Shown in pieces: positions 2,929-45,936 of a DNA stretch of 64,000 bases (positions are counted from its first letter, which is position 1; each line of letters opens with the position of its first letter). The stretch is from Halichondria panicea. Taxonomy: Eukaryota; Porifera; Demospongiae; Suberitida; Halichondriidae. The notes beneath the pieces are model-generated. The model searched no databases. It saw only the letters and a list, made by a program, of their open reading frames with translations, and was not told the origin of the DNA. A program made the position numbers and the translations under genes. Location: the NCBI RefSeq assembly GCF_963675165.1, contig NC_087378.1, positions 2,039,525 through 2,103,524 on the forward strand, written 5' to 3'.

Positions 2929-4160
2929 ATGAACATGCTCTGTGTGTATGGAGTTATTTTGGTAAGACTACAGGAATATTAATTTTATGTTGTAAATACT
3001 AATCAGTATAGGTCACTGCACTTGTGCAAGGACAACCACAGTATGAGGTGCAAGTACAGTTGCCTGTCACATTTACCTACAGAGAGGGAGCATCAACTAG
3101 GGGTGTTTCGTATAATAACACACTAGCTGATGACAGTTGTTGCACGCCTACTCCTGGAGGTACCTCTTGTCCCATTTGTGATAATCGTATCACCCTCTGT
3201 TTCCGAGAGGCTCAGCATCCAGTGGATGACACCAACACCGCCATCTGTCCTCTAGGAGATATGGTTTTCACCCCATCTGTACTGGGCACAGATATCATTA
3301 CATTTGATTCTACAGTGTCAACAACTACCACTACATATCCGGTGAGTTCGATTAAGGTGATTGAGTTAATCTTCTATACGTTTTCTTAGGGAAGTTTCCA
3401 ACTCTACTATTGAATATTTACACTACCAAGTGGACAAGAGGTTGAGAGTGGACAACGAACACTGACCCGGCCAAAACAAGACAGAACATCTACTCTGACT
3501 GGTAGCAGTCAAGTTGGTGGTGTGAGGACTAAACTATTTCTTGGAGGACTACGAGTAGTGTGCAAGGAAGGCTACTTTGGTCCTGACTGTGGTATACTTT
3601 GTACCTCAAGAAACGACTCCACTGGACACTTCACCTGTGACACTAATGGTATCAAGGTGTGTCTCCCCGGTTACCAGAATCCGGAGACCATCTGTGTGGA
3701 AGAAGAAGAAAATACAGTTACGCCCAAACCTTCCAGTACTAACATTGTGATAGAGTTGACTAGTAACAGTGACGTCTCTCCATCAGCTGCTGGTGCGGAC
3801 ATTGTACCCATTGTGGCTGGAGGAGTTGCTGCGGGGTTGGTGGTGTTAGTGTTGATCTTAATTGTCAACATTGTGTTGGTGGTTGCTTACGCGAAAGTCA
3901 AGTTTATGAAAGACACTTCAAATAAACAAGGTATGCTGTGATATCCGCACTGGAAAAACAACTAATTCATTATCATTCAAATCCCTTCTGTATGAATACA
4001 ACATAATTCAGTACTACTTAGTTGCTTGTTTTACCACCATCATGCAGGGTCTGCAGCGGAGGAGCAAATCGGTATGGAGGTGAACCCAATGTATGGGAAG
4101 GGGGACAACCATGACTATGAGAGAGTACAGGACTCTGTGCAGGCGTATTCTGTACAGTAG
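2929..4160 (+). pseudogene. DR1: Delta-like (MNNL-DSL) transmembrane receptor, type A ectodomain, S1 tail, one nonsense codon
   Basis: Four exons: 2929-2961 (signal peptide MNMLCVYGVIL), 3012-3341 (MNNL-like module, with CC and CFREAQH), 3390-3930 (end of that module, DSL domain CKEGYFGPDC...GHFTC...KVCLPGYQ, short stalk, TM) and 4048-4160 (tail with NPMYG and DYERV). Intron phases 0,0,1 match all other copies and intron 2 is only 48 nt. The frame is open except for TGA at 3411-3413, where intact copies have CGA (Arg) after QLYY. This is a single likely C-to-T change, so the copy is probably a very young pseudogene, a null allele, or a sequence error. DSL domains bind Notch receptors in animals; this copy has no EGF repeats. 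It is the first unit of the array and lies about 200 bp from the divergent SDR gene. Confidence 0.8.
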
Positions 4161-4561
4161 CTTTAGATCTATAGAAAGAGTAGCTTACACTTTCCATTGA
4201 ACATGAATCACACTGAGTACATGACTCTGTATTGAAGCACACGTATTCTCTGTACAGTAGCTTTAGATCTATAGAAAGAGTAGCTTACACTTCCATTGAA
4301 CATGAATCACACTGAGTACATGACTCCGTATTGAAGCACACGTACACTGCACTACAGTCACCGTACTGCACAGTAGCTTTAGATGGGTAGCTTACACTTC
4401 TATTGAACATGAATCACACAATTTCATTATCAAAGTTTATCCATGAGAATGTGCATACTGATACTAACGAGATTACCGTACCGTAGTCATAATGACAAAA
4501 ATAATGGGCTAGTCAAACAGCGTTATGTGACAGGAGCAAAACATGTTATTAGTTTCTTAGG

Positions 4562-6150
4562 TACAAGCCTTGTACCAGCACCTTGTACTGTGATTGTCCT
4601 TGTAACAAGGACAATCACAGTACGAGGTGCAAGTTGAGTTGCCTGGCGGTTACCTACAGACAAGGAATATCGCTTATGCATGGGTGTTCTAAATCCATAT
4701 GAGAACAGGCTGGATATTTCTCACTTGCTTGCAGAAGGGGGGACCTCTTGTGATAATCGGATCCTCTATTTCAGAGAGACTTGGGATCCAGTGGATAACA
4801 ACACAGCCACCTGTCCTCTGGGAGCATTGACCTTCGCTCCATCTGCGATGGGTGCAAACATCATTACTACATTATCAACATAATTATACCACTACATATG
4901 CATGCAGTGAGTTTGATGATCTTTTTTGGGGCAATCTTTATATTTTTCTCAGGAAAGCCCTTGAGATTGAAATAAAAATAGTGTTCAGAGAAGGTTATAC
5001 TTTAATAGGTTGATCCTGACTGTATAGTTGCAGCTCACAGAACGACTCCACATGCAGGACACTTCACCTGTGACACTATATTGGTACCAAGGCATATCTC
5101 CCTGGTTACCAGAACCCCGAACCACACTGAACACCTGTAGAACACTCTCACCAAGTGTTTGCTTGCGCTGAGGTGTAGTTTGAAGATGTTCAGAGGGTTC
5201 AAACCACACCGAACACCTGTACAAAACCCTCTCCAGGTGTTTGCTTGTCTGGAGGTTCGTGCTTGCTGCAAGGCTCCTTTAGCTCAAGAATCATGGTCGT
5301 CACTATCATAGTCATAATCTTCCCAGGAATGGTATAATTAAAGTGTACGCTGAGGTGTAGTTCTAAGTTAGTCTCGCGAGCAGCCGTCGAAGGGGGAAGG
5401 ACCCTTCGACGGCTGCTCGCGAGACTAGTTCTAAGTACCATGTCAAGGAGATAATTTATCACTTAAGGCCTAATAACTGACTTTTACTTCCAAATTCTGC
5501 CTATTATTCTTACAATTGTTATAAAGGTGCTCATTATGTTAGCATAATTCTCACCTGTATAAGACCAACTGCACAGAAGAGGAAGGAAATACAGTTACGC
5601 CCAAACCTTCCAGTACTACGAGTAGTGTGATCCATGGTGAGTCTACTCCTGAGACAACGTTTACCACACAAGAGTTGATGACATTGATCAGCTGCTGGTG
5701 CAGATATGGTACCCATTGTGGCTGGAGGAATTACTGTGGGATTGGTGGTGTTAGTGTTGATCTTAATTGTCAACATTGTGTTGGTTGATTACGTGACAGT
5801 TTTTATGAAACAATAAACAAGGAAGATACGCTGTGACGTCCGCACTGAAAATAAAAATAATACATTATCATTTTGTATATTACAATACATACAGCATACT
5901 ACTTACCTGTTGCTTGTTTTACCACCATCTGGGTCAGCAACAGAAGAGAAAATCGGTATAGGTGAATCCAGTGTACGAGATGGGGGGAGGTGGACACAGC
6001 GGAATTAAGGACAAGAATGTTGAACACAGAATGGTATAATGATTGTTAACTTTACACAGCGGAGATATTTCCGTTTTCCATTTCCGTTTCCGTTGAATGA
6101 GAGAGTACGATGATTCTGAGTTGAACCAATCGTACTCTGTGCAGTAGCTT
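4562..6150 (+). pseudogene. DR2: decayed type A DSL receptor
   Basis: Recognisable parts occur in the usual order but with many frameshifts. MNNL exon relic 4609-4885; DSL relic about 4990-5115, with cysteine spacing still visible; a fold-back insertion at 5370-5426; a stalk and TM relic 5560-5815, still encoding an IVPIVAGG-like helix; and an S1 tail relic from about 5930, where GSATEEKIG is readable before the frame breaks. The 5' edge carries an inverted copy of the MNNL exon start (4562-4623). The segment from 5553 rightwards is duplicated at 25848. No reading frame can be joined, so it is not expected to make protein. Confidence 0.8.
5370..5426. mobile_element. Perfect 25-bp hairpin inserted in DR2
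   Basis: AGTCTCGCGAGCAGCCGTCG, continuing AAGGG, is followed after a 7-nt loop by its exact reverse complement. TAGTTCTAAGT occurs immediately outside both arms, as a probable target duplication. GC-rich in an AT-rich setting. Confidence 0.8.
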
Positions 6151-8754: not shown

Positions 8755-8763
8755 TATAAATAG
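8755..8763 (+). promoter_or_regulatory. TATA-like box of DR4 (type B promoter)
   Basis: TATAAATAG lies 57-65 bp upstream of the DR4 start codon, in a block (CTCCAGGCTAGCAGC before it, TGTGTCAGT after it) conserved upstream of every type B copy that keeps exon 1. Confidence 0.5.
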
Positions 8764-8819
8764 TGTGTCAGTTAGTTAGAATCAGCATACCTACCAAGCA
8801 AAAGCACAACTTAGTGAAG

Positions 8820-9962
8820 ATGAGCTGGGCAAGTGGAATATTTTTGATTGTGGTAGGTTACTGATTGTTATCGTAGAATCAACTCAATACAATCATAGTT
8901 GCTACTTGTATTCAGGTCGTTGCATTGGTGCAAGCAACACCACAGTATGAGGTGCAAGTGCAATCACCTGTCTTATTATCATACACTCCTGGAAATCAAA
9001 ACCAACTATTTGATGGCACTTGCTGTTCACCTAATGAAAGCTGCTTGTCTGTGGAAACCAACTGCTGCTTTACTGCATGCAATGAAACTCAAATCACCCT
9101 CTGCTTCAGAGGCCCAACATTCAACAAATGACTCAGACTCTACCAACTGTCCTCTAGGAATGGCAACAGTCCTTTCTGATACAGTGGCTAATATCACATA
9201 TAATTCTACAGCAAACCTAACCACCACCACCACGTATACAGTAAGTTGCTTAACATTCTTTTACTGATAAAGATATCTAGTTACACACATTTTTCATAAC
9301 ACAGGGGAGTTTTCAACTTTTCTACAAAGTGGTATCTTTGCAGCCAGTAAGAGAAATTTACCATGGAGTAAGCACTCTCAATTATACAATACAATTGTGC
9401 GTCCAATAGTAAACAGTGGAGAACGAGCATTTCTATTGATTCGGGGCATTAGAGTGGTGTGCAGAGAAGGCTACTTTGGTCCTGACTGTGGTTGCAGCAC
9501 ACGAAACGACTCCACTGGACACTTTACCTGTGATACTAATAGTACCAAGGTGTGTTTCCCTGGTTACCAGAACCCTGAGACAAACTGTGTAGAAGAGGAA
9601 GGAAGTACACAAGAGCCTGCAATAACCATGAGCAGCAGTTCGGCTACTACCACTATATCATCTAGATCTGCTATTGCGGATATTATACCCATCATAGGCG
9701 GAGGTGTTGCCGGGGGGTTGTTGGTGTTGCTATTGATGCTGACTGTTAACGTTGTATTGGTGGTTGCTGCTATCAAGTTCAAGTTTACTGCACAACATTC
9801 AAGAGCTCAAGGTATATGCATGCTTAATATTCAACTTGTCACTTTCTTACTACATGTAATTCTCAATCCATAGTTGATGAGCACATTACCATGGGAGCCA
9901 ATCCAGTTTATGATATGAAACAAAGAGATGAAAGCGACACTTATTATGAAACTCTAAAATAA
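8820..9962 (+). pseudogene. DR4: type B DSL receptor with S2 tail, two frameshifts
   Basis: Exons 8820-8852 (MSWASGIFLIV signal), 8916-9240, 9305-9811 and 9874-9962 are all recognisable with standard splice sites. Compared with DR12 and DR15, exon 2 lacks two bases at the CFREAQH site (near 9110) and exon 3 lacks about seven bases after ACAATACAA (near 9393). Each shifts the frame. The DSL domain, a short Thr-rich stalk, the IIPIIGGGVAGG transmembrane helix and the S2 tail (GANPVYDMKQ and TYYETLK, stop at 9960-9962) are otherwise intact. A possible poly(A) signal AATAAA lies near 10093. A close relative with other defects is DR11 at 31384. Confidence 0.8.
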
Positions 9963-10940: not shown

Positions 10941-10954
10941 GAGTATCACAGATT

Positions 10955-12032: not shown

Positions 12033-14338
12033 ATGAGCTGGGCAAGTGGAATATTTTTGATTGTGGTAGGTTACTGACTGTTATCGTAGAAACAATCATA
12101 TAGTTGCTACTTAATTGTATTCAGGTCGTTGCATTGGTGCAAACAAAACCACAGTATGAGGTGCAAGTGCAATCACCTGTCTCATTTTCATACGCTCCTG
12201 GAAATCAAAACCAACTATTTGATGACACTTGCTGTTCACCTAATGAAACGAACAATTGCTCGTCTACTGAAACCAACTGCTGCTTTACTGCATGTAACGA
12301 AACTCAAATCACCCTCTGCTTCAGAGAGGCTCAGCATTCAACAAATGACTCAGACTCTACCAACTGTCCTCTAGGATTGGCAACAGTCCTTTCTGATACA
12401 GTGGCTAATATCACATATAATTCTACAGCAAACCTAACCACCACCACCACCACCACGTATACAGTAAGTTGCTTAACATTCTTTTACTGATAAAGATGTC
12501 TACGCACATTATTTTCATAACATAGGGGAGTTTCCAACTTTTCTACAAAGTGGTAGCTTTGCAGCCAGTAAGAGAGATCGACCATGGAGTAAGCACTCTC
12601 AACTATACAATACAAGATATTTTTGTGCGTCCAATAGTATACAGTGGAGAACGAGCATTTCTATTGATTCGGGGCATTAGAGTGGTGTGCAGAGAAGGCT
12701 ACTTTGGTCCTGACTGTGGTTGCAGCACACGAAACGACTCCACTACCCTTGAACCACCCTCCTGGTCCAATGCCAATAATCTAGCATTCCTGTCCATTCT
12801 CCCGACAGCAGTGGGCGGGGCAGTGGGTGGACTAGTTTTTATGGTATTATTCCTTGTTTTTGTTATTGTGGTAGTGTGTGTCTGCAAGTGCAAGAGCAAA
12901 AGGAATCAAGCTACAAGAGGTGTTGGTATGGCTAAGATTAATCTGCATGCATGCACTTCTACATACATGTTACTAGTATAGTCTTGTTGCATGTACATGT
13001 ATAGAACCCTAAGGTACTTCGCGTTAGCTAGTATACTAAATACTGATATTGCAATCTTTGAATACAGTTACTATTGCATTCACGTCAGAGGAGAATCCAA
13101 GCAACACAGAAGATGATGCCCTCTCATTGTATACACAAGTCAACAAGGAGAATAGTAAGTAAACGTTAGCTTTGAAGTCAGTCTATGAAAGAGGCACATT
13201 AAAATTCAGAATGCAAGGTTTTAAAAATAACATTATCGATTGCATTGTTTTTGTATCAGATACCCAACAAGAGGAGGCCCCTCCAATTAACCCTTATCAG
13301 GAAAGCATCTACGCGGAGGTGAAGAAGACGAGATCGTTTACTAAGAACGGGCACGTTGACAAGGAGCCACACTACAGTACCCCTAGCAATGCCTCTACAC
13401 CACAGTACAGTGTACCTAGCACTGTTCTCATGGATACACCACAATACAGTACTCCACTTTCAAAGGACGCTAGCGATAACCTTAAGGAGCCACAGTACAG
13501 CACTCCTATTTCTAGGGGGGCTACCCTTACCTGTAAGCCCCAATACAGTACGCCTGTTAGCACACTACCCAGGGATTACCCTAAGGAGACACTGTACAGC
13601 ACACCTGTTTCCAAGGGGACTACATCACCACACACTAAGAAACCACAGGTATGCCTCTTTATAGCTAGTATAACGTAATTTTTGTGGGGTAAAAAAACGC
13701 GGTGATTTTCATGAGTAATTGACTTCGTTGCCTGTACTGCATGCATGCGTTCCGGTAAACCACGCCTGTACGCTCGAGCATTACTCAACCGAGAGCATTA
13801 TTGTATCATCTGAGTATAATATTGCTCTCGGTTGAGTATACTGCTCATGGTTTTTGTGATTTTTGTGGAGGTCAGCTTTCCCATAAAAAATAACGAATTT
13901 TTACAAAAATTATCCGCTACATGGTATGTGTTTGTACGGGATCACACTTGTACGTACTATTCCTACAGGTTGTGTATGGTGACATCTCGAGCATTACTCA
14001 ACCGAGAGCATTATTGCATCATCCGAGTATAATATTGCTCTCGGTTGAGTATACTGCTCATGGTTTTTGTGACTTTTGTGGAGGTCAGCTTTCCCATAAA
14101 AATAACGAATTTTTACAAAAATTATCCGCTACATGGTATGTGTTTGTACAGGATCACACTTGTACGCACTATTCCTACAGGTTGTGTATGCTGACATAAA
14201 GGTTTCCAGAACCACAGGGGATGAATCTACAAAGTCAAATAAAGTAGGTCACATAATAATTATCAGCATTAATTCGCTATGCAATCGTCTCCACAGAATG
14301 ACAAGATTGAAGTACAGTACTCGGAAATTCAAGCATAA
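12033..14338 (+). CDS. DR5: type B receptor with half a DSL domain and an L1 tail carrying six YxxP motifs
   Basis: Seven exons join without a stop to 450 aa: 12033-12065, 12125-12463, 12526-12925, 13068-13154, 13260-13648, 14181-14243, 14297-14338. Order: signal peptide (MSWASGIFLIV...), MNNL-like module (about 12-178), DSL start from Cys179 (CREGYFGPDCGCSTRNDST), TM (about 215-244) and tail (245-450). The DSL stops after three of six cysteines, where TLEPPSW replaces GHFTC...KVC...NC; the truncated form DR13 shares this. The tail has LYTQV, IYAEV, one HYSTP, one QYSVP, three QYSTP, one LYSTP, VVYADI and VQYSEI. YxxP sites typically recruit Crk/Nck-type SH2 domains, and IYAEV, VVYADI and VQYSEI fit the ITIM pattern. 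The donor GTATGG after codon 257 was preferred to a nearby GTGTTG; both keep phase 1. The binding partner is unknown. Confidence 0.8.
13773..14199 (+). repeat. 214-bp tandem duplication containing a fold-back element and a splice acceptor
   Basis: 13773-13986 and 13987-14199 are near-identical. Each begins CTCGAGCATTACTCAACC, contains a hairpin (13776-13846 and 13989-14059; arms built on CTCAACCGAGAGCATTATT) and ends in CCTACAGGTTGTGTATG, the acceptor and start of DR5 exon 6. The upstream duplicate exon start (about 13972) reads VVYGDI and then runs into the hairpin; the downstream one is the normal exon. The homologous DR13 locus has a single copy (hairpin at 39726-39794). Confidence 0.75.
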
Positions 14339-15285: not shown

Positions 15286-17088
15286 ATGATCTTACACTGG
15301 ATACCTGAATTAATCTTGATGGTAAGCAGTTACATAATTATAATGTACTCGTAGGACAAACTATGCAAACAGGTCACAGTACTGGTGCAAGGACAACCAC
15401 AGTACGAGGTGCAAGTTGGACTGCCTGTCACGTTTACCTACAGACAGGGACTATTGGATAGGAATGTTTCATATGAGAACAGGCTAGCTGATGGCAGGTG
15501 TTGCTCATCTAATGAAGGAGGTACCTTTTGTCCCACTGCTTGTGAGAATCGTATCCTTCTCTGTTTCCGAGAGGCTCAGCATTTAGTGAATGACGCCAAC
15601 CTAGCCATCTGTCCTCTGGGAGGAATGACCTTCACTCCATCTGTAATGGATACAGGCATCATTACATTCAATTCTACAATTTCAGCAACTACCACTACAT
15701 ATCCAGTGAGTTGATATTTTCCAATCACTAATCAATTTAATTCTAATCCTCAGGGAAGCTTCCAACTCTATTAACTATCAAATTATTGCACTATCAAGGG
15801 GGTCACAAGAGGTTGAGAGTGGACAACGAACACTGACCCAGCCAATACAAGACAGAACATCTACTCTAACTAGCAGTCAATTTGGTGGTGTGAGGACTAG
15901 ACTATTTCTAAACAGAGGACTACGAGTTGTGTGCAAGGAAGGCTACTTTGATCCTGACTGTGATATCCCTTGTACCTCAAGAAATGACTCCACTGGACAC
16001 TTCACCTGTGACACTAATGGTACCAAGGTGTGTCTCCCTGGTTACCAGAGCCCTGAGACCAACTGTGTGGAAGGAACTGTCCCCCGCACTGCTAGCACTC
16101 CAGTCACTCAAACAACTACTCGTATTTTAACCATGGAAACATCATCACAAAGCAGCGATATGCCAACACGACAGACTATTACACCCACACCTCTTAGCAT
16201 TGTGGTGAGTACCGCTCCCGAGACAACATTTGTCATACAAGAGTTGACTACTAACAGTGACATATCTCCATCAGCTGTTAGTGCGGACATTGTACCCATT
16301 GTGGCTGGAGGAGTTGCCGCGGGGTTGGTGGTGTTAGTGTTGATCTTAATTGTCAACATTGTGTTGGTGGTTGGTGTTCTCAAAGTCAAGTTTATGAAAC
16401 ACTATTCAAATAAACAAGGTATGCTGTGATCATTGATGTTTTAAAGCATCTGTATTACAAAATAAACACATTAACCATTGAAGTTTGCATGTGAATCCCC
16501 TCTGTATTACATGAAACAGTGCGTGATTGTATCCCCTAAATAGATTGTCGTTACTAGATAAGCCTGAATTACCGCCACAATTATTCTAAACTTACAACTA
16601 TAAGCCCGTTTACCATCATAACTATACTAAAAGCAAATCGATAATAAAAAATAAAAGTCTGGCAGATAATTATATTTGCTGTTAATTGAACCCCTAATAA
16701 AAATTTAATGGCCCGAATCATAATTCCTTGTCTCAATAAGAACAAGAACTGCGGCTAACACTAAAGGCACACCCACTAGCTGGCATTAGGATACTTGAAC
16801 ATAAACCCCGATACTTGACATAGACATCCCAAATGTCATTACTAAATAATTTTGTGCAGTTTGTGTGAACACAAAAAAAGCTTACATGGCGATAATAATG
16901 TAATGTACGTACTAAACACAAAATAAAGAGTTATAATCACTCACTTTAACTGTTGCTTGTTTTCTTACCACCATGCAGGGTCTGCAACGGAGGAGAACAT
17001 CACTATGGGGGCGAATCCAGTGTACGAGATGGGGGGAGGTAGACACAACAGATCTGAGGACAATGTTGACTATGAGATAGTACGATGA
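15286..17088 (+). pseudogene. DR6: type A DSL receptor with S1 tail, disrupted at the start of exon 3
   Basis: Exons 15286-15321 (MILHWIPELILM), 15373-15705 (MNNL-like, 111 codons), 15754-16418 (DSL, long Thr/Ser stalk, TM) and 16979-17088 (tail with ANPVYEM and DYEIVR). The only defect seen is at 15774-15779, where CTCTATTAACTATC replaces CTCTACTATC. It adds four bases and an immediate TAA after QLY. The rest of exon 3 is open in the expected frame, including a DSL domain of the CDIPCTSRND subtype and the IVPIVAGGVAAG helix. No other acceptor rescues the frame, so this is either a young pseudogene or an assembly or sequencing error. Confidence 0.8.
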
Positions 17089-17369
17089 CTACCCAAATAT
17101 ACTCTGTGCAGTAGTTTTAGATCTATAGAAAGAGTAGCTTACACTTGTAATCTGTTTACATCACTGAAAATGGACCATCTGTCCTTCATAGATCAAAGTT
17201 ATTATTGATGTAACAGTTGTAAATCAGCCAAAACTAAAACTCACTGTATATGCCTAGCTAAGATGGATACCAACGAGATTACTGTAATCATCTTGACAGT
17301 ATGGGTGAGTCAAACAGCATCTTATAACAAGGTGTTATTGGTTTCTTAGTCTGTATACTGGTACAATTA

Positions 17370-18396: not shown

Positions 18397-20266
18397 ATGA
18401 TCTTACAGTACTGGATACCTGGATTAATCTTAATGGTACGCAGTTACATAATTAGTGTACTCATAGGACAAACTATAATGCAAACAGGTCACAGCACTGG
18501 TGCAAGGACAATCACAGTACGAGGTGCAAGTTGGACCACCTGTCACATTTACCTACAGAGAGGGACTATCGGATAGGAATGTTTCATATGAGAACACACT
18601 AGCTGATGGCAGCTGTTGCTCACGTAGTGAAGGAAATACATCTTGTTCCACTGCTTGTGAGAATCGTATCTTTCTCTGTTTCCGAGAGGCTCAACATTTA
18701 GTGAATGACACCAACATAGCTGTCTGTCCTCTGGGAGATATGACCTTCACTCCTTCTGTAATGGATACAGGCATCATTACATTCAATTCTACAATTTCAG
18801 CAACTACCACTACATATCCAGTGAGTTGATATTTTCCAATCACTAATCAATTTAATTCTAATCCTCAGGGAAGCTTCCAACTCTACTATCGAATTATTGC
18901 ACTATCAAGGGGGGCACAAGAGGTTGAGAGTGGACGACGAACACTGACCCAGCCAATACAAGACAGAACATCTACTCTGACTGGTAGCAGTCAAATTGGT
19001 ATTGGTGTTGTCAGGACACAACTATTTATAAACGGAGGACTACGAGTGGTGTGCAGAGAAGGTTACTTTGGTCCTGACTGTGGTTGCAGCCCACAAAACG
19101 ACTCCACCGGACACTTCACCTGTCACATTAATGGTACCAAGGTGTGTCTCCCTGGTTACCAGAACCCTGAGATCAACTGCACGGAAGAAGCACTAATTAC
19201 ACCTGAAACTTCCCAGCCGACACCACACACTATACAGCACACTACTTTTATAACAGAGGCAATGACTACTACAGGCATAACAAATACTTTACCCACAATC
19301 ATGACAACTACGACTATTGATGAACCAACAGCTACAATACCGCCTAACATAATGCAGACGAGCTCTACAAATGAGCCTGCAAACGCAATAAGCTCACTAC
19401 AGCCGAGTTCAACTAGTGCTACAACAAACGCAGGTACTACTACGGATGTTTTGCCGATAGCAATAGGCGGGGCAGTGGGTGGCCTGGTTGTGGTGGTGAT
19501 AATCATATTAATCACAATTTTGCTGGTCCTCAAAACTAAGAGAAAGAAAAAGAGCGAAGAAGATGGTGAGTCAATCAGTGCATGAAACATATTCAAATAA
19601 ACAAGGTATGCTGTGATCATTGATGTTCTAAAGCATCTGTATTGCAAAATAAACACATTTACCATTGAAGTTTGGATGTGAATCCCCTCTGTATTACATG
19701 AAACAGTGCGTGATTGTATCCCTAAATAGATTGTCGTTACTAGATAAGCCTGAATTACCGCCACAATTATTCTAAACTGAAAACTATAAGCCCGTTTACC
19801 ATCATAATTATACTAAAAGCAAATCGATAATAAACAATAAAAGTCCGGCAGATAATTATATTCGCTGTTAATCGAACCCCTAATAAAAATTTAATGGCCC
19901 GAATCATAATTCCTTGTCTCAATAAGAACAAGAACTGCGGCTAACACTAAAGGCACACCCACTAGCTGGCATTAGGATACTTTAACATAAACTTGACATA
20001 GACATCCCAAATGTCGTTACTAAATAATTTTGTGCAGTTTGTGTGAACACAAAAAAAGCTTACATGGCGATAATAATGTAATGTACGTACTAATCACAAA
20101 ATAAAGAGTTATAATCACTCACTTTAACTGTTGCTTGTTTTCTTACCACCATGCAGGGTCTGCAACGGAGGAGCACATCACTATGGGGGCAAATCCCGTG
20201 TACGAGATGGGGGGAGGTGGACACAGCGGACCTGAGAACAATATTGACTATGAGATAGTACGATGA
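18397..20266 (+). CDS. DR7: intact type A DSL receptor, chimera of L2-type ectodomain exon with short S1 tail
   Basis: Four exons, 18397-18435, 18488-18820, 18869-19565 and 20157-20266, join to 392 aa with no stop. Signal peptide MILQYWIPGLILM; MNNL-like module (about 14-185) with paired CC and a CFREAQH core; DSL domain 186-228 with all six cysteines (CREGYFGPDC, GHFTC, KVC, final C); Ser/Thr-rich stalk to about 317, with many T/S/P and possible O-glycosylation; TM about 318-345 (VLPIAIGGAVGG...); tail with KTKRKKK stop-transfer, ANPVYEM (NPxY, PTB or endocytic type) and DYEIVR. Exon 3 is nearly identical to that of DR8, which has a long tail, but exon 4 is the DR6 type. The intron after exon 3 still holds the 3' end of a DR6-type exon 3 (19585-19608), marking the recombination point. 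Confidence 0.85.
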
Positions 20267-21594: not shown

Positions 21595-24473
21595 ATGATC
21601 TTACACTGGATACCTGGATTAATCTTAATGGTACGCAGTTACATAATTAGTGTACTCATAGGACAAACTATAATGCAAACAGGTCACTGCACTGGTGCAA
21701 GGACAACCACAGTACGAGGTGCAAGTTGGACTGCCTGTCACATTTACCTACAGAGAGGGACTATCGGATAGGAATGTTTCATATGAGAACACACTAGCTA
21801 ATGGCAGCTGTTGCTCACGTAGTGAAGGAAATACATCTTGTTCCACTGCTTGTGAGAATCGTATCCTTCTCTGTTTCCGAGAGGCTCAACATTTAGTGAA
21901 TGACACCAACATAGCTGTCTGTCCTCTGGGAGATATGACCTTCACTCCTTCTGTAATGGATACAGGCATCATTACATTCAATTCTACAATTTCAGCAACT
22001 ACCACTACATATCCAGTGAGTTGATATTTTCCAATCACTAATCAATTTAATTCTAATCCTCAGGGAAGCTTCCAACTCTACTATCGAATTATTGCACTAT
22101 CAAGGGGGTCACAAGAGGTTGAGAGTGAACGACGAACACTGACCCAGCCAATACAAGACAGAACATCTACTCTGAATGGTAGCAGTCAAATTGGTATTGG
22201 TGGTGTCAGGACACAACTATTTATAAACGGAGGACTACGAGTGGTGTGCAGAGAAGGTTACTTTGGTCCTGACTGTGGTTGCAGCCCACAAAACGACTCC
22301 ACCGGACACTTCACCTGTCACATTAATGGTACCAAGGTATGTCTCCCTGGTTATCAAAACCCTGAGACCAACTGCATGGAAGTAGTACAAATCACATCCG
22401 AACTTACAACAGAATCTGTCCAGCCTACGCCACACACTATACAGCAGAGCACCACTACTTTTATAACAGAGGCAATGACTACTATAGGCATAACAAATAC
22501 TTTACCCACAATCATGACAACTACGACTATTGATGAACCAACAGCTACAATACCGCCTAACATAATGCAGACGAGCTCTACAAATGAACCTGCAAACGCA
22601 ATAAGCTCACTACAGCCGAGTTCAACTAGTGCTACAACAAACGCAGGTACTACTACGGATGTTTTGCCGATAGCAATAGGCGGGGCAGTGGGTGGCCTGG
22701 TTGTGGTGGTGATAATCATATTAATCACAATTTTGCTGGTCCTCAAAACTAAGAGAAAAAAAAAGAGCGAAGAAGATGGTGAGTTAAAAGAATTACACAT
22801 GCAGGTGCATACGAAAACTAACAAACACTACATTTACTTCAAATGCTTCTCCTTTGATGAGCTCAAACACACACAACACACTTGTACGCAAACAAATTCT
22901 GTTTTCTTTACTCACACATGTCCTATAGCTACCACAATCATGAATTTAGAGGAGCTTCCAAATAGTAAGAACAACACTGATGGTATTGACGCTTTGAACT
23001 TGTATGCTAGTGTCAACAAAGATGCAAGTGAGTAATAGTGCAGGAAAGCACCTACCACCACTTCAAACACTGTAGTGCTTGCAACACCCATTGCTAACCA
23101 TTCACCTTACAACAACTAGAGTACCCATATCAACATGGCTTTAAATTAATTTACAATCGTTTAGAAAGCACCCAGTACTGTACGCATGACATAAATTTTT
23201 TGTGTAGACAAATGTGCAGAAACACCACAAGAGGAAGCCCCTGCAGTTATCCCTTATCAAGGACAGATCTACTCGGAGGTGGAGAAGACGGGACTGTTTG
23301 GTAAGCAGGAGAGTGATTCAACTAGTGAGGAGCCTCAGTACAGCATGGCAACAGCTGGTACCTCTAAACTGGAGAGTGTCGATGACAACGAAGAGCCAAG
23401 ATACAGCACAACTCAATTCCTAGCTATTGATAAGGAGCCACAGTACAGTTCTCCCAATGCTGCGAGTGCATCGACTCAGGCACTCAATGAAGAGCCTCGA
23501 TATGACATCACTTTTAGAGGTGCCTCTACGGCAACTGGAACCAACGAAGAACCACATTACAGCACTGCCATTAGAAATGTGCCCTCAAACACAGCTACAC
23601 AGGTGATTACCACATTAATTTTGTTTGTTATGCCTCGGGGCGTAGCCGCACGAGGGATACGGTAAAGTTAACTTTGTGTGTGTGTGTGTGTGTGTGTGTT
23701 CCAGCTGTAACTGCTCAACGGTTGCAATGCGACGAAAACTAACAGCTTCTATAGGCCTCTAGCCACATCTTCTTGTTTATACACGTACCTTTGTTATTGT
23801 TACAGATGCAGATAAATGAGGCTGGCTACAGTATTCTAAAGGGTGACCCTAAACGCTTCGAAAATGTGAATATTGGACCGGAATACTCCAAGCTGGAGGG
23901 CACCACACAAGTGACACAACATCAGGTATTTATTGTAGCACTTAAAAAATCTATCGACATACTGTACAGGTACAGGACGAGAGTCAGTATTCGGAACTTG
24001 AGACTACCAAGAAGCCTGATGTTCAGGTATTCCTTTAGTGTTAGAACGTCCTTATAAGTCTTCGAAAACCTTTTACCAAAAAGAATGCTAGTGCTACATA
24101 GCTATACAGCTTCTTCCAACAGATCTATGTGGCTGGCTACAGTGCACTTGAAGAATCTCGATACTCTGAAATTGAAAGTGAAACTAAGCAACCACAGGTA
24201 TTCAAATTAAAATATGCTACAAATAGTATAAGGAATTTCAATATTACTATCAACTTGTGATACTCGTAAACAATTAATCCGCAGATTGTGTATGCTGATT
24301 TAGAGATTGCAGATAGCCAGAGTGCTGACAAAGCAACTACACAAACGGTACGGTACAGCACAAGACGTGATTACGTGTCTGATAATGACCACACAATTAC
24401 CCCCCTACAGTCTGACAACATGAACACAACAGAAGTACAGTACTCGCACATTAAGAACGGACAGTCAGTTTAG
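21595..24473 (+). CDS. DR8: complete type A DSL receptor with long L2 ITIM-rich tail
   Basis: Nine exons (21595-21630, 21683-22015, 22064-22778, 22929-23027, 23208-23602, 23806-23925, 23970-24026, 24123-24197, 24285-24473) join without a stop to 672 aa. Signal peptide 1 to about 22; MNNL-like module to about 184, with the YPGSFQLYYRI segment matching the PGTFSL region of Delta; DSL 185-227 with all six cysteines; Thr/Ser-rich stalk; TM about 323-350; tail 351-672. Tail tyrosine motifs include LYASV, IYSEV, EPQYS, EPRYS, QYSSP, EPRYD, EPHYS, YSIL, EYSKL, SQYSEL, YSAL, SRYSEI, IVYADL, RYSTR and VQYSHI. SQYSEL, SRYSEI, IVYADL and VQYSHI fit the (S/I/V/L)xYxx(L/I/V) ITIM consensus. Known DSL proteins carry EGF repeats and lack such tails. 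Predicted plasma-membrane receptor or ligand able to recruit SH2 proteins; the partner is unknown. Confidence 0.88.
23630..23765 (+). mobile_element. Small repeat in DR8 intron 5 (TGCCTCGG family)
   Basis: TTATGCCTCGGGGCGTAGCC, then CGCACGAGGGATACGGTAAA, a TG microsatellite and a conserved CTTCTATAGGCYTCTAG segment. The same arrangement starts the 1.3 kb element at 6599 and recurs in the DR15 intron at about 45072. It is read as a member of one non-autonomous family; no coding capacity. Confidence 0.45.
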
Positions 24474-31383: not shown

Positions 31384-32548
31384 ATGAGCTGGGCAAGTGG
31401 AATAATTATTTTGATTGTGGTAGGTTACTGATTGTTATCGTAGAATCGACTCAATACAATCATATATAGTTGCTACTTGTATTCAGGTCGTTGCATTGGT
31501 GCAAGCAACACCACAGTATGAGGTGCAAGTGCAATCACCTGTCTTATTTTCATACACTCCTGGAAATCAAACCAACTATTTGATGGCACTTGCTGTTCAC
31601 CTAATGAAAGCTGCTTGTCTGTGGAAACCAACTGCTGCTTTACTGCATGCAATGAAACTCAAATCACCCTCTGCTTCAGAGGCTCAGCATTCAACAAATG
31701 ACTCAGACTCTACCAACTGTTCTCTAGGAATGGCAACATTCCTTTTTTGATACAGTGGCTAATATCACATACTGCATGGTATAATTCTACAGCAAACCTA
31801 ACCACCACCACCACCACATATACATGTAAGTTACTTAACATTCTTTTACTGATAAAGATGTCTACGCACATTATTTTCATAACATAGGGGAGTTTCCAAC
31901 TTTTCTACAAAGTGGTAGCTTTGCAGCCAGTAAGAGAGATCAACCATGGAGTAAGCACTCTCAACTATACAATACAAGATATTTTTATGTGTCCAATAGT
32001 AAACAGTGGAGAACGAGCATTTCTATTGATTCGGGGCATTAGAGTGGTGTGCAGAGAAGGCTACTTTGGTCCTGACTGTGGTTGCAGCACACGAAACGAC
32101 TCCACTGGACACTTTACCTGTGATACTAATAGTACCAAGGTGTGTTTCCCTGGTTACCAGAACCCTGAGACAAACTGTGTAGAAGAGGAAGGAAGTACAC
32201 AAGAGCCTGCAATAGCCATGAGCAGCAGTTTGGCTACTATACCACTATATCATCTGCTATTGCGGATATTATACCCATCGTAGGCGGAGGTGTTGCCGGG
32301 GGGTTGTTGGTGTTGCTATTGATGCTGACTGTTAACGTTGTATTGGTGGTTGCTGCTATCAAGTTCAAGTTTACTGCACAACATTCAAGAGCTCAAGGTA
32401 TATGCATGCTTAATATTCAATTTGTCACTTTCTTACTACATGTAATTCTCAATCCATAGTTGATGAGCACATTACCATGGGAGCCAATCCAGTTTATGAT
32501 ATGAAACAAAGAGATGAAAGCGACACTTATTATGAAACTCTAAAATAA
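31384..32548 (+). pseudogene. DR11: type B DSL receptor with S2 tail, frameshifted
   Basis: Exons at 31384-31419, 31487 to about 31825, 31888-32397 and 32460-32548. Exon 2 has lost one A in GGAAATCAAACC (near 31568), gained a T near 31746, carries an extra segment near 31773, and has an altered donor (TACATGTAAG). Exon 3 breaks in the stalk near 32239. The DSL domain and the S2 tail (GANPVYDMKQ, TYYETLK) are intact as sequence. It is the partner of DR4 in the duplicated block but carries different disabling changes, so the two copies decayed independently. Confidence 0.8.
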
Positions 32549-32810
32549 TAATTGTTGTTACGATAATTATAGTGACAGAAGGCCTCTATTATTATACACA
32601 TCATGGTTTCATATACATGCAGCATAGATATGAACAGTGAACAATTGAATAGGAACTCTGTAAATCCTGTCTTCTGGGAATAAAAAATACTTCTTCTTGG
32701 TGTATAGATACTCTACACGATTATAATTCTGTGTCAAAGCTATATAAACAACCACAATAGCTATCCAGTTAGTTAACACTTTCAAGATAATAACTTTATA
32801 ACATAACATA

Positions 32811-37564: not shown

Positions 37565-38548
37565 CAGATTTATGCAACAAGCTCGCACCCACTGACGCCC
37601 CTTTTTTCCACATTGGTAACCCAACCCAGACACACCTAGAACCCTCGTCAAACCCCTCCCTTTTGCAAATAATGGTTGGAACGTTGAGAATCATCGATGG
37701 TTTTCGACAGCCACGAAGCACTCGTGGAACTGCATGACGACAACTATATCAGAAAATGATGAGGTTGGTACCAAACTACTGTAGTGTACACCCTCAGCTA
37801 CTCGCTAAATGACGTCTCGGGGTACTGAAACCTTATAAGTTCCGGTACAAGGTTCTAACCCCGATTAATCTCCCTACACGTTTCGGCGGGCGGGGGAGGG
37901 GGGGCGCGCCAAAACACGGGCGAAAAATTACGTTTTAGTACATGCGTCGATTAAAGGAATTTTGTGCGCTGTCTGTGACCTTTCTGATGGACGTAGTGCT
38001 GGGCAGGCATTTATGACTCAAATCGAGTCAATGGCAGGTATATATATAAAGGGTTAAAGCTAGCCTCGTTGTCTCTACAAATAATGCTAGGTCACCGTAT
38101 TTTCCACTTCGTTCTAATAAAGAAAAATCAGCCTGGGACCGAGGCTACCTTAAAGCATGCAGCTCCAAGATGCATCTATGCATGGCTTCACTATAAGATG
38201 ATGGTTTCAACTGAGCCTGTAATTATGACGAGAAGGAACTTTTCAATCCTTTGGGTGCACACAGGAAAAAGCATAAATAAGTAACCTTACAGTCTGAACG
38301 TTGAGAAATTGGTGTATATTAATTGTGCAGATGCTTTTTATGACAACAATGTAAATGAGTGCAAAAAACTTATACACCTGTGTATAAGGATACTCAGAGA
38401 GAGTATGGTCCTGACACTATAATTATACTCGTGGATATACCGCTATACTTACCTAGTTGTGAATGAACTCGGCATAATAAGTTAGTATAATATACAACAA
38501 TTATTTGCCAGGAAATCCCCATTTACTTATATAATGACATACCTCCAG
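37565..38548 (+). repeat. Upstream flank block of type B genes, copy 3
   Basis: Same flank as at 10955. It ends abruptly at ACATACCTCCAG, where the DR13 truncation joins. No gene was seen. Confidence 0.65.
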
Positions 38549-40082
38549 TGGAGTAAGCACTCTCAACTATACAATACAAGATATTTTTGTGCGTCCAATA
38601 GTAAACAGTGGAGAACGAGCATTTCTATTGATTCGGGGGATTAGAGTGGTGTGCAGAGAAGGCTACTTTGGTCCTGACTGTGGTTGCAGCATACGAAACG
38701 ACTCCACTACCCTTGAACCACCCTCCTGGTCCAATACCAATAATCTAGCATTCCTGTCCATTCTCCCGACAGCAGTGGGCGGGGCAGTGGGTGGACTAGT
38801 TTTTATGGTATTATTCCTTGTTTTTGTTATTGTGGTAGTGTGTGTCTGCAAGTGCAAGAGCAAAAGGAATCAAGCTACAAGAGGTGTTGGTATGGCTAAG
38901 ATTAATCTGCATGCATGCACTTCTACATACATGTTACTAGTATAGTCTTGTTGCATGTACATGTATAGAACCCTAAGGCACCTCGCGTTAGCTAGTATAC
39001 TAAATACTGATATTGCAATCTTTGAATACAGTTACTATTGCATTCACAGAGGAGAATCCAAGCAACACAGAAGATGATGCCCTCTCATTGTATACACAAG
39101 TCAACAAGGAGAATAGTAAGTAAACGTTAGCTTTGAAGTCAGTCTATGAAAGAGGCACATTAAAATTCAGAATGCAAGGTTTTAAAAATAACATTATCGA
39201 TTGCATTGTTTTTGTATCAGATACCCAACAAGAGGAGGCCCCTCCAATTAACCCTTATCAGGAAAGCATCTACGCGGAGGTAAAGAAGACGAGACTGTTT
39301 ACTAAGAACGGGCATGTTGACAAGGAGCCACACTACAGCACCCCTAGCAATGCCTCTACACCACAGTACAGTGTACCTAGCACTGTTCTCATGGATACAC
39401 CACAATACAGTACCCCACTTTCAAAGGACGCTAGCGATAACCTTAAGGAGCCACAGTACAGCACTCCTATTTCTAGGGGGGCTACCCTTACCCGTAAGCC
39501 CCAATACAGTACGCCTGTTAGCACACTACCCAGGGATTACCCTAAGGAGACACAGTACAGCACACCTGTTTCCAAGGAGACTACATCACCACCCACTAAG
39601 AAACCACAGGTATGCCTTAGCTAGATAACGTAATTTTTGTGAGGTAAAAAACGCGGTGATTTTCATGAGTAATTGACTTCATTGCCTTCACTGCATGCGT
39701 TCCGGTAAACCACGCCTGTACGCTCGAGCATTACTCAACCGAGAGCATTATTGTATCATCCGAGTGTAATAATGCTCTCGGTTGAGTACTGCTCAGGGTT
39801 TTTGTGATTTTTGTGGAGGTCAGCTTTCCCACAAAAATAACGAATTTACAAAAATGATCTGCTACATGGTATAATTATGTTTGTACGGGGGTTACACTTG
39901 TACATACTATTCCTAAAGGTTATGTATGCTGACATAAAGGTTTCCACGTTATCCAGAACCACGGGGGATGAATCTACAAAGTCAAATAAAGTAGGTCACA
40001 TAATTATCAGCATTAATTCGCTATGCAATCGTCTCCACAGAATGACAAGATTGAAGTACAGTACTCGGAAATTCAAGCATAA
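38549..40082 (+). pseudogene. DR13: 5'-truncated copy of the DR5 type (promoter, exons 1-2 deleted)
   Basis: The upstream flank ends at ACATACCTCCAG and continues directly into the middle of exon 3 (TGGAGTAAGCACTC, about 38548). TATA box, signal exon and MNNL exon are therefore missing. Downstream, everything is open: rest of exon 3 to 38889 (half DSL, TM), exon 4 39032-39114 (one codon shorter than DR5), exon 5 39221-39609 with the YSTP repeats, exon 6 39919-39990 (VMYADIKVSTLS..., three codons longer than DR5) and exon 7 40041-40082 (VQYSEIQA). Without a signal peptide it should not reach the surface. The preserved tail suggests a recent deletion. Confidence 0.75.
39726..39794. mobile_element. 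Fold-back element in DR13 intron 5
   Basis: Arms GAGCATTACTCAACCGAGAG and a CTCTCGGTTGAGTACTGCTC complement. Same family as the two hairpins at 13776 and 13989, here in a single copy. Confidence 0.7.
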
Positions 40083-41029: not shown

Positions 41030-41908
41030 ATGATCTTACACTGGATACCTTAATGGTAAGCAGTTACATATTATTAATGTACTCATAGGACACTCTATAA
41101 TGCAAACAGGAAGGACAATTACCACAGTACGAGGTACAAGTTGGACTGCCTGTCACATTTATCTACAGAGAGGGACTATCGGATAGGAATGTTTCATATA
41201 ATAACACACTAGCTGATGGCAGGTGTTGCAAACATAATGAAGGAAATACCTCTTGTCCCACTGCTTGTGATAATCGTATCCTTCTCTGTTTCCGAGAGGC
41301 TCAGCATCCAGTGAATGACACCGACCGAGCTGTCTGTCCTCTGGGAACAATGACCTTCACTCCATCTGTAATGGATACAGGTATCATTACATTCAATTCT
41401 ACAATGCAAGCAACTACCACTATACATATCCAGTGAGTATGACTAAACTATAAGTTGCTGTGAGCTAATCTTCTATTTTCTCAGGGAAGCTTCCAACTTT
41501 ACTCGAATTAGTACAGTATCAAGGGGAGAAGAGGTTGATAGTGTACAACAAACACTGACTGAGCCAATACAAGACAGAACATCTACTCTGACTGGTAGCA
41601 GTAACGTTGTTGATGTGAGGACTAGACTATTAAATGGAGGACTACGAGTGGTGTGCAGAGAAGGCTACTTTGGTCCTGACTGTGGTTGCAGCACACGAAA
41701 TGACTCCACTGGACACTTTACCTGTGATACCAAGGTGTGTTTCCCTGGTTACCAGAATCCTGAGACAAACTGTGTAGAAGAGGAAGGAAGTACACAAGAG
41801 CCTGCAATAACCATGAGCAGCAGTTCGGCTACTACCACTATATCATCTAGATCTGCTATTGCAGATATTATACCCATCATAGGCGGAGGTGTTGCCGACT
41901 ATATCAGA
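41030..41908 (+). pseudogene. DR14: type A DSL receptor, frameshifted and truncated in the TM exon
   Basis: The signal exon has a 10-nt deletion (ATACCTTAATGG), giving a stop after MILHWIP. Exon 2 (from about 41111) lacks its first codons but keeps a CC and CFREAQH core. Exon 3 (from about 41485) has a short deletion and in-frame stops before a clean DSL domain (GCSTRNDSTGHFTCDTKVC, lacking a short NGT/NST-type loop). The gene ends within the TM (IIPIIGGGVA), where it joins the ACTATATCAGAAAATGATG sequence of a type B flank. The deletion that fused them removed the tail. Confidence 0.75.
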
Positions 41909-43214: not shown

Positions 43215-45123
43215 ATGAGCTGGGCAAGTGGAATATTTTTGATTGTGGTAGGTTACTGACTGTTATCGTAGAATCAACTCATAGTTGCTACTTGTATTCA
43301 GGTCGTTGCATTGGTGCAAGCAAAACCACAATATGAGGTGCAAGTGCAATCACCTGTCTCATTTTCATACGCTCCTGGAAATCAAAACCAACTATTTGAT
43401 GGCACTTGCTGTTCACCTAATGAAAGCTGCTTGTCTGAGGAAACCAACTGCTGCTTTACTGCATGTAACGAAACTCAAATCACCCTCTGCTTCAGAGAGG
43501 CTCAGCATTCAACAAATGACTCAGACTCTACCAACTGTCCTCTAGGAATGGCAACAGTCCTTTCTGATACAGTGGCATATAATTCTACAGCAAACCTAAC
43601 CACCACCACCACCACGTATACAGTAAGTTACTTAACGTTCTTTTACTGATAAAGATGTCTATGCACATTATTTTCATAACATAGGGGAGTTTCCAACTTT
43701 TCTACAAAGTGGTAGCTTTGCAGCCAGTAAGAGAGATCGACCATGGAGTAAGCACTCTCAACTATACAATACAAGATATTTTTGTGCGTCCAATAGTAAA
43801 CAGTGGAGAACGATCATTTCTATTGATTCGGGGCATTAGAGTGGTGTGCAGAGAAGGCTACTTTGGTCCTGACTGTGGTTGCAGAGATAATTCCACTGGA
43901 CACTTCACCTGTGACGCTAATGGTACCAAGGTGTGTCTCCCTGGTTACCAGAACCCTGAGACCAACTGCACGGAAGAAGCACTAATTACACCTGAACCTA
44001 CAACAGAAACTGTCCCCACTGCTAATCCAGCCTCTCAGACAACAGAAACTTCCCAGCCGACACCACAGACTATACAGCAGAACATTACTACCTTTATAAC
44101 AGAGGCACTGACTACTATAGGCATAACAAACGCAGGTACTACTATGGATGTTTTGCCGATAGCAGTAGGCGGGGCAGTGGGTGGCCTGGTTGTGGTGGTG
44201 ATAATCATATTAATCACAATTTTGCTGGTCCTCAAAACTAAGAGAAAGAAAAAGAGCGAAGAAGATGGTGAGTTAAAAGATTACACATGCAGGTGCATAC
44301 GAAAACTAACAAACACTACATTAATTTACTTCAAATGCTTCTTCCTTTGTTTCTCTTTACCCACACTCACGTCGTATAGCTACCACAATCATGAATTTAG
44401 AGGAGCTTCAGAACAACACTGATGGTATTGACGCTTTGAACTTGTATGCTAGTGTCAACAAAGATGCAAGTGAGTAATAGTGCAGGAAAGCACCTACCAC
44501 CACTTCAAACACTGTAGTGCTTGCAACACCCATTGCTAACCATTCACTTTACAACAACTAGAGTATCCATATCAACATAGCTTCAAATTAATTTACAGTC
44601 ACGTTTAGAAAGCACCCAGTACTGTACGCATGACATAAATTTTTTGTGTAGATAAATGTGCAGAAACACCACAAGAGGAAGCCCCTGCAGTGATCCCTTA
44701 TCAAGGACAGATCTACTCGGAGGTGGAGAAGACGGGACTGTTTGGTAAGCAGGAGAGTGATTCAACTAGTGAGGAGCCTCAGTACAGCACGGCAACAGCT
44801 GGTACTTCTAAACTGGAGAGTGTCGATGAGAACGAAGAGCCAAGGTACAGCACAACTCAATTCCTAGCTATTGATAAGGAGCCACAGTACAGTTCTCCCA
44901 ATGCTGCGAGTGCATCGACTCAGGCACTCAATGAAGAGCCTCGATATGACACCACTTTTAGAGGTGCCTCTACGGCAACTGGAACCAACGAAGAACCACA
45001 TTACAGCACTGCCATTAGAAACGTGCCCTCAAACACAGCTACACAGGTGATTACCACATTAATTTTGTTCGTTATGCCTCGAGGCGTAGCCGCACGAGGG
45101 ATACGGTAAAGCTAACTTTGTGT

Positions 45124-45160
<37 letters not shown>

Positions 45161-45936
45161 CCAGCTGTAACTGCTCAACGGTTGCAATGCGACGAAAACT
45201 AACAGCTTCTATAGGCTTCTAGCCACATCTTCTTGTTTATACACGTACCTTTGTTATTGTTACAGATGCAGATAAATGAGGCTGGCTACAGTATTCTAAA
45301 CGGTGACCCTAAACGCTTCGAAAATGTGAATATTGGACCGGAATACTCCAAGCTGGAGGGCACCACACAAGTGACACAACATCAGGTATTTATTGTAGCA
45401 CTCAAAAAATCTATCGACATACTGTACAGGTACAGGACGAGAGTCAGTATTCGGAACTTGAGACTACCAAGAAGCCTGAGGTCCAGGTATTCCTTTAGTG
45501 TTAGTACGTCCTTATAAGTCTTCGAAAACCTTTTACCTAAAAGAATACTAGTGCTACATAGCTATACAGCTTCTTCCAACAGATCTATGTGGCTGGCTAC
45601 AGTGCACTTGAAGAACCTCGATACTCTGAAATTGAAAGTGAAACTAAGCAACCACAGGTATTCAAATTAAAATATGCTACACATTTTAGTATAAGGAATT
45701 TCAATATTACTATCAACTTGTGATACTCGTAAACAACTAATCCGCAGATTGTGTATGCTGATTTAGAGATTGCGGATACACAGAGTGCTGACAAAGCAAC
45801 TACACAAACGGTACGGTACAGCACAAGACGTGATTACGTGTCTGATAATGACCACACAATTACCCCCCTGCAGTCTGACAACATGAACACAACAGAAGTA
45901 CAGTACTCGCACATTAAGAACGGACAGTCAGTTTAG
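43215..45936 (+). CDS. DR15: complete chimeric receptor, type B ectodomain with long L2 ITIM-rich tail
   Basis: Nine exons (43215-43247, 43302-43622, 43685-44267, 44380-44469, 44652-45046, 45266-45385, 45430-45486, 45583-45657, 45748-45936) give 620 aa without a stop. Signal peptide MSWASGIFLIV; MNNL-like module about 12-172 of type B (FSYAPGNQNQ, SFQLFYKVVALQ); DSL 173-213; stalk to about 273; TM about 274-301; tail 302-620. The tail is almost identical to that of DR8 (IYSEV, EPQYS/EPRYS repeats, YSIL, EYSKL, SQYSEL, SRYSEI, IVYADL, VQYSHI), although DR8 has a type A ectodomain. The change from B-like to DR8-like sequence falls inside the DSL domain near CGCRDNSTGHF, where two residues are missing compared with other copies. 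The stalk is about 35 residues shorter than in DR8. Confidence 0.88.

Follow-up and report, generated by a model that had tools for sequence, protein, structure and literature searches.

Clustered Delta-type genes with swapped heads and tyrosine-rich tails in the genome of the sponge Halichondria panicea

Described relatives of the cluster

Delta is usually viewed as an outward-signalling ligand. The sponge Amphimedon queenslandica possesses five Deltas, of which AmqDelta4 is without epidermal growth factor (EGF) repeats, and SH2, phosphotyrosine-binding (PTB) and SH3 sites have been predicted in their tails by ELM, with a caveat added by the authors (PMC3482393). An Amphimedon Delta with 0 EGF repeats has also been described together with unusual DSL-only genes of cnidarians (PMC2770060), and both MNNL and DSL are present in a choanoflagellate (PMC6040629). 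The present analysis concerns a tandem cluster of Delta-like genes from Halichondria panicea, situated in a 64,000-nucleotide stretch of contig NC_087378.1 (C2:2039525-2103524; genome of 131.5 Mb in 39 contigs) referred to below as the window. The genes of this cluster, including DR8 (21595-24473) and DR15 (43215-45936), are paralogues between which ectodomains and signalling tails have been swapped. All gene coordinates within the window are on the forward strand.

The cluster genes resemble AmqDelta4 in possessing a signal peptide, an MNNL region (software-detected in AmqDelta4, marginal in the cluster), a DSL and a transmembrane (TM) segment without EGF repeats, and resemble the Amphimedon Deltas in general in the basic residues behind the TM segment and in predicted SH2 and PTB sites of the tail (PMC3482393). 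Tandem arrays of immunoreceptor tyrosine-based inhibition motifs (ITIMs) and exchange of heads and tails are unmentioned in the available part of that account, with which the comparison is by description only (PMC3482393). Canonical Delta and Jagged (DLL1, PDB 4xbm) share the head alignment and six DSL cysteines, whereas the cluster proteins differ in the lack of EGF repeats, a changed contact face and a long tyrosine-rich tail. The FcoR receptors of Botryllus are likewise clustered type I TM proteins with ITIM and Yxx[ILV] core motifs; their heads, however, are of Ig and sushi type with known polymorphism, and ITIM and hemi-immunoreceptor tyrosine-based activation motif (hemITAM) are interchanged by alternative splicing at some loci, whereas in the cluster exchange runs between genes (PMC12065747).

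An earlier reading made from the sequence alone had proposed an undescribed receptor class in which a Notch-ligand head is joined to a phosphotyrosine tail. The coupling stands, comparison of gene structures favouring a single gene for both; the claim of a new class is not supported in that form, because EGF-less Delta is known from Amphimedon (PMC3482393, PMC2770060), with SH2 and PTB sites predicted in Delta tails of that sponge (PMC3482393), so the cluster would be a variant of EGF-less sponge-type Delta and not a new kind. The clustered family that it described amounts to 11 recognisable units, although six are broken and the DSL is truncated at 12.0k and 38.5k. No DSL protein with ITIM tails was described in the titles and abstract beginnings of the literature lists consulted, two of them viewed in part, and the clustered, mosaic coupling of a Notch-ligand head to tandem ITIM tails appears to be new.

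Heads, stalks and tails

Models built from the genomic sequence gave DR8 and DR15 10 in-phase exons each, in the order signal peptide, MNNL-DSL head, Cys-free stalk, single TM segment and a tail of approximately 300 residues with 16 tyrosines. The DR8 model comprises 651 residues (phases 0,0,1,1,0,0,0,0,0) and its sole stop is terminal. Exon 1 (21595..21630; MILHWIPGLILM) provides the ATG and signal peptide (Kyte-Doolittle hydropathy, KD, 1.68 over residues 1-19) and ends at a donor GT in phase 0. The MNNL-like N-terminal half of the head occupies exon 2 (21683..22015; MNNL 24.6 bits, cut-off 22.5), and exon 3 (22064..22778) carries the remaining head with the DSL (1.7e-7), the Ser/Thr stalk, the TM segment and the sequence KTKRKKK before ending in phase 1. 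Seven tail exons (22929-23027, 23208-23602, 23806-23925, 23970-24026, 24123-24197, 24285-24347 and 24411-24473) follow in phase through the stop. DR15, modelled at 599 residues, has the same exon plan: exons 1 and 2 (43215-43247, 43302-43622) encode the signal peptide and a B-type head, exon 3 (43685..44267) the rest of the ectodomain and the TM segment, and the seven tail exons lie at 44380-44469, 44652-45046, 45266-45385, 45430-45486, 45583-45657, 45748-45810 and 45874-45936.

Four further models share elements of this plan. The gene g12k (12033..14338) and the paralogue L029, which lies on the same contig approximately 0.6 Mb from the cluster (C2:1461k; gene at L029 1223-3120), have 7 exons each with identical phases 0,0,1,1,0,0. 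In g12k a B-type head with the DSL cut after NDST precedes the TM segment and a YSTP-rich tail ending VVYADI...VQYSEI; either of two donors, each in phase 1, could serve its exon 3. The genes g18k and g35k have 4 exons each and retain the phase-1 junction behind the TM exon that is found in the long genes. A DR8-like head, stalk and TM segment (18397-18435, 18488-18820, 18869-19565) is followed in g18k (18397..20266) by a short tail, NPVYE...DYEIV (20157-20266), where g15k matches, while g35k (35127-35159, 35216-35548, 35612-36128, 36191-36240) has a B-type head, a TM segment of its own type and a short NPVYDMK tail. At a synonymous divergence (dS) of 1.57 between its head and that of DR8, L029 still shows the same exon plan and ends in the tandem ITIM pair, and this recurrence of the plan in a distant paralogue argues that head and tail belong to one gene. 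As far as genomic sequence can show, the architecture is real.

Searched against PDB, the spliced DR8 head matched DLL1 best (4xbm, 1.2e-10; query residues 33-212, spanning the MNNL and DSL regions), and all 12 sequences matching at E<=0.1 were Notch ligands. A profile from 14 paralogue fragments, 8 of the original 22 alignment rows having been left out because distant exons were misplaced, gave 12 PDB matches at E<=0.01, every one a Notch ligand. The head motifs CC, CFRE, P/GSFQL (split by an intron) and CREGYFGPDC..GHFTC..KVC..C were all found. In six-frame searches DSL (PF01414) had at least 26 exon matches genome-wide, all 26 above the cut-off and 8 within the window, and MNNL (PF07657) at least 53 matches at E<=0.1, of which 39 exceeded the cut-off and 4 lay within the window; both genome-wide counts are lower bounds. 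Against a DSL cut-off of 24.2 bits, DR8 scored 31.8, DR15 26.9, L029 39.7 and the 35k read-through 27.6. For MNNL (cut-off 22.5) the 21.7k exon reached 24.6 bits, as given above, the 15.4k exon 23.1, whole DR8 22.2 and the exon of L029 19.0. Pfam matched nothing at E<=1 in the 12.1k and 43.3k exons, and DSL only in the 35k read-through.

No EGF family was matched at E<=1 in DR8 or the 35k read-through, or at E<=0.1 in DR15 or L029. In DR8 the place of the repeats is taken by a stalk of 104 residues, 37% Ser plus Thr, with 0 Cys, followed by the single TM segment (KD 3.43); that of L029 is shorter, at 31 residues (16% Ser plus Thr), and the measured stalks are without Cys. A Pfam match to RIFIN in DR8 (1.7e-4, 22.1 bits, cut-off 32) and also in DR15 fell over the stalk and TM segment and was discarded as an effect of composition.

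Outside the window lie 18 DSL matches. The 10 that were read fall at 9 separate places, L003 covering the same place as L002; the other eight comprise six on C4, C16:4690005 and C15:2184612. EGF-type sequence was seen by eye behind the DSL at 7 of the 9 places (L001, L002, L005, L007, L008, L030, L032) and not at the remaining two, L029 and C8:672k (L031; by eye only). At C4:5457k and C4:5594k three tandem DSL matches share a single 275-residue open frame, an arrangement resembling the cnidarian DSL-only genes (PMC2770060).

Tail motifs were counted against shuffled sequences (3000 in the second run) with seven patterns, uncorrected, a strict ITIM being defined as [SIVL]xYxx[ILV]. The DR8 tail, 301 residues with 16 tyrosines, contains nine Yxx[ILVMF] (shuffle mean 2.59, p=0.0004) and four strict ITIMs (mean 0.50, p=0.0006), together with five EPxY, one YxxP and no NPxY. 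Strict ITIMs number three in DR15 (p=0.011 and, in the second run, a shuffle share of 0.012), four in g12k (0 of 3000) and three in L029 (0.003), but one in the short tail of g18k (0.03) and none in that of g35k. YxxP occurs six times in g12k (0.0003), and NPxY once each in g18k and g35k and not at all in the DR8, DR15, g12k and L029 tails. Across the units, YSTP repeats mark the 12.0k and 38.5k tails, and short NPxY tails are found at 3.0k, 8.9k, 15.3k, 18.4k, 31.4k and 35.1k. The last two exons of DR8, DR15, g12k and L029 each carry a tandem ITIM pair (IVYADL...VQYSHI in DR8), whose tyrosines are 26-29 residues apart in the four genes, a spacing able to engage two SH2 domains.

Four pieces of the tail common to DR8, g12k and L029, chosen by hand, hold 5, 5 and 6 tyrosines respectively. 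Five of their Tyr columns do not vary; among the gap-free columns outside positions -2 to +3 of these tyrosines, 13 of 61 are invariant. Between the DR8 and DR15 tails the ratio of non-synonymous to synonymous divergence (dN/dS) is 0.26 at a dS of 0.046, from 8.5 synonymous and 8.5 non-synonymous differences, while six introns of the tail show 16 differences in 673 sites. The long tail is under constraint.

The sequence-only reading was correct as to the Notch-ligand motifs, the Ser/Thr stalk in place of EGF repeats, and the single TM segment with ITIM-like, YxxP and NPxY tails, although the three motif types sit on different copies. In the Pfam profile searches that it suggested as a check, DSL exceeds the cut-off in DR8, DR15 and L029, and MNNL is marginal, with no match in the 12.1k and 43.3k exons.

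Elsewhere in the genome, MNNL genes on C6, C12 and C14 likewise combine an MNNL-like exon, a TM segment and tails with tyrosine motifs (NPIYG), but differ in possessing EGF repeats. Among five such MNNL-like exons tested, four scored 22-37 bits and one 21.0, two being below the cut-off; one concatenated gene had no DSL or MNNL match at E<=0.1, though its exon alone reached 26.1 bits for MNNL. Clusters of MNNL-like exons occur at C6:3972-4033k, C12:1815-1870k, C12:5770-5785k, C14:5642-5725k and C9:6579-6585k. At the 4 of 20 C6, C12 and C14 loci that were read (L010, L018, L023, L027) the MNNL-like exon is followed by EGF repeats, with TM stretches and tails bearing NPIYG, YELA or YETP-like motifs nearby. 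The clusters on these three contigs suggest that a far larger family of Delta-like receptors may be present.

Exchange between paralogues and layout of the locus

DR15 consists of the head of another clade (dS to DR8 1.09) joined to the tail of DR8 (dS 0.046). Identity between the two genes is 41-70% up to the DSL, 85-89% over the DSL and early stalk and 92-100% across the TM segment, tail and introns; from DR8 22925 onward it is 95-100% in all sliding windows, introns included. Compared with g12k, DR15 is 95-99% identical until about 43.9k and 31-66% thereafter, so that sliding identity places the mosaic junction in the DSL region of exon 3, B-type before it and DR8-like in stalk and TM segment after it. 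In g18k, the head of DR8 is carried on an NPxY tail: identity to DR8 is 94-100% until the end of the TM exon (88-90% in two windows of the stalk) and drops to 35-67% after it, while beyond the TM exon g18k is 91-99% identical to g15k over about 750 bases. The unit g41k is 79-93% identical to DR8 across the head and 97% identical to g35k in one TM window.

Trees of the two halves disagree. For exon 2 (9 genes, with g9k, g31k and g38k left out; 200 bootstraps), DR15 groups with g12k (97%) and g35k (100), apart from DR8, whereas the tail tree (4 genes) joins DR8 with DR15 against g12k with L029 (support 92). Sliding identity and the conflict between the trees therefore point to recombination or gene conversion, not duplication alone. 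Pairwise dN/dS of the head ranged from 0.23 to 0.62 in four pairs; positive or diversifying selection was not detected in these comparisons, all values being below 1, and there is therefore no sign of it at pairwise resolution.

Uninterrupted models were obtained for 5 of the 11 units (12.0k, 18.4k, 21.6k, 35.1k and 43.2k). The other six, with approximate ends except for g41k, are g3k (3012..4165; A-type head, a stop codon in frame near the start of exon 3, tail with NPMYG), g9k (8916..9960; B-type head with frame changes, NPVYD tail), g15k (15286..17110; A-type head, frame change at the start of exon 3, NPVYE tail), g31k (31487..32550; almost a copy of g9k, its exon 2 containing a frame change), g38k (38538..40050; exon 2 not found, truncated DSL, TM segment and a YSTP tail like that of g12k) and g41k (41030..41900; A-type head on a B-type stalk and TM segment, incomplete). 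It is the second half of the DSL that is absent from the 12.0k and 38.5k units, and additional relics sit among the 11. The cluster resembles a segmental duplication with offsets of 20-26 kb that was rearranged later; blocks are 94-98% identical, the pairs being 5558-6595/25849-26888, 8266-10936/30830-33532, 12585-13985/38549-39935 and 22636-24897/44125-46356. Flanking the cluster, 53681-57093 holds what are, by eye, presumably exons of a kinesin-like motor gene with a coiled coil.

Binding partner, direction of signalling and alternative explanations

These data are best explained, with a little over even confidence, by a tandem cluster encoding type I membrane proteins of sponge-type Delta ancestry, whose heads would sit on exchangeable phosphotyrosine tails and signal inward. 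The MNNL-DSL head would be raised by the Cys-free stalk in place of EGF repeats, and the conserved phase-1 junction behind the TM exon would join it to a cytoplasmic module of one of three kinds, namely a long series of ITIMs, a series of YxxP motifs that closes with the same two ITIMs, or a short tail with NPxY. On this model the head would engage a partner, perhaps other than Notch, on an adjacent cell; kinases would phosphorylate the tail tyrosines, the terminal tandem ITIMs would recruit an SHP-type phosphatase, and the remaining tails YxxP-reading or PTB adaptors. Since different tails would recruit different readers, one kind of head could yield different inward signals. The proteins are likely to function as receptors; from their motifs we infer recognition, phosphorylation, SHP recruitment and inward signalling, and an immune or allorecognition role might be hypothesised. 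A bolder form is tentative and rather doubtful: in an early animal, Notch-ligand heads would have been recruited for recognition and recombined with inhibitory (tandem ITIM), YxxP and PTB-type tails, allowing a single contact to be read in different ways. Such a combinatorial system would be a non-Ig counterpart of paired natural killer (NK)-type receptors and might serve self/non-self recognition in sponges.

A possible reader of the tails was identified among 61 SH2 exon matches genome-wide. At C3:8404-8406k exons for SH2, SH2 and protein tyrosine phosphatase (PTP) domains stand in that order; one SH2 exon matches PTPN11 best (4.1e-58), and the one PTP exon searched matched receptor PTPs first (7.8e-17) and PTPN11 next (6.1e-12). 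Judged from these exon matches the genome contains an SHP-type phosphatase gene, and a candidate reader of tandem ITIMs is therefore probably present. The PTP domain (PF00102) had at least 174 matches, with 150 of 361 candidates scored; among the matches listed, most lie in tandem clusters on C4 (41k-2.6M), a very large expansion of tyrosine-phosphatase domains.

The Notch-binding face of Jagged1 is formed by F199, R201, R203 and F207, to which a figure legend adds D205 (PMC3415683). When these positions are assigned from their spacing in the DLL1 alignment, the four sites read gap, S, Q, T in DR8 and P, I, Q, T in L029, so that neither retains any, and all 11 window units have Thr where Jagged1 has F207. 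The contact face is changed in these proteins, whereas C8:672k (L031) retains R201, R203 and F207.

A number of observations weigh against the inward-signalling reading. The R203 position is Arg in 8 of 11 window units and Gln in 2, DR15 being two residues shorter there, and D205 is retained in DR8. All four contact residues are likewise missing from L002, a Delta of this genome that does carry EGF repeats, and the Amphimedon Deltas are said to be without essential sites (PMC3482393). The Notch face is lost only in part, which does not decide the matter: because L002 and the Amphimedon ligands also lack contact sites, Notch binding would be weakened, not excluded. MNNL scores are marginal for the cluster, and an AlphaFold2 model of the 35.2-35.9k head from the 14 paralogue fragments (pLDDT 33, pTM 0.24) was not used. 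The GT-AG splice sites were hand-picked to preserve frame, and their presence in the models is therefore no independent evidence; 6 of the 11 units are broken by a stop, a frame change or an exon absent from the assembly. In the tails, the flanks of the invariant tyrosines are invariant at 9 of 24 columns against 13 of 61, which is not significant (p=0.11), and 11 of the 16 DR8 tyrosines fall outside the pieces compared. Finally, a pair resembling an immunoreceptor tyrosine-based activation motif (ITAM), YSEI..YADL with 10 residues between, occurs once each in DR8 (0.05) and DR15 (0.04).

The genes might instead be ordinary, lineage-expanded sponge Deltas acting via Notch, with tail motifs serving endocytosis or sorting only. 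YxxPhi and NPxY do double as sorting signals, and the DSL, the homology of the head and the predominance of Arg at R203 would suit such ligands, as would the expression of EGF-less AmqDelta4 with AmqNotch around the pigment spot (PMC3482393). This is nevertheless considered improbable: DR8 and L029 retain none of the four contact residues against the three kept by L031, LNR matches occur at two places only in the genome, and the near-fixed spacing of the tandem ITIMs exceeds the needs of sorting.

Activating tails on the same architecture, in which YSEI-x10-YADL acts as an ITAM for a Syk-type kinase or the Yxx-hydrophobic motifs act as hemITAMs, may be envisaged from the ITAM-like pairs in DR8 and DR15, each within a 6-12 spacing, and from the Yxx[ILV] core and hemITAM motifs of Botryllus FcoR (PMC12065747). 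However, no Yxx[LI] pair stands at the classical 6-8 residues in any of the 6 tails, g12k and L029 have no ITAM-like pair, and the enrichment in the other two is marginal, which makes activation distinctly unlikely.

Less likely again is the view that the two parts are separate pieces or lack function, the tail exons being relics or part of another gene, or the copies being haplotypes assembled end to end. The broken units and the blocks lying 20-26 kb apart (8266-10936/30830-33532 at 93.8%, 22636-24897/44125-46356 at 93.6%) are as this would predict, but the distant paralogue L029 has the same exon order and phases, the tail dN/dS points to constraint, and the copies are not allelic because the swaps join divergent heads. 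Engulfment or lipid sensing, with a C2-like MNNL head reading membrane lipid above NPxY and YxxV tails as in Draper/CED-1, would suit the NPVYE...DYEIV tails at 15.3k and 18.4k but is just as improbable, the tails of DR8, DR15, g12k and L029 being without NPxY. Lipid binding by the C2 domain of human Notch ligands (PMC5538765) is the other point in its favour.

In this cluster a Delta head is found on tails like those of inhibitory immune receptors, in a genome with an apparent SHP-type gene, and head and tail have been parted by natural swaps. Should the tails work as proposed, ITIM-style signalling and Notch-ligand recognition would be united in one molecule, probably in a non-bilaterian animal, and the cluster would provide a concrete candidate family for the cell-recognition receptors of sponges.

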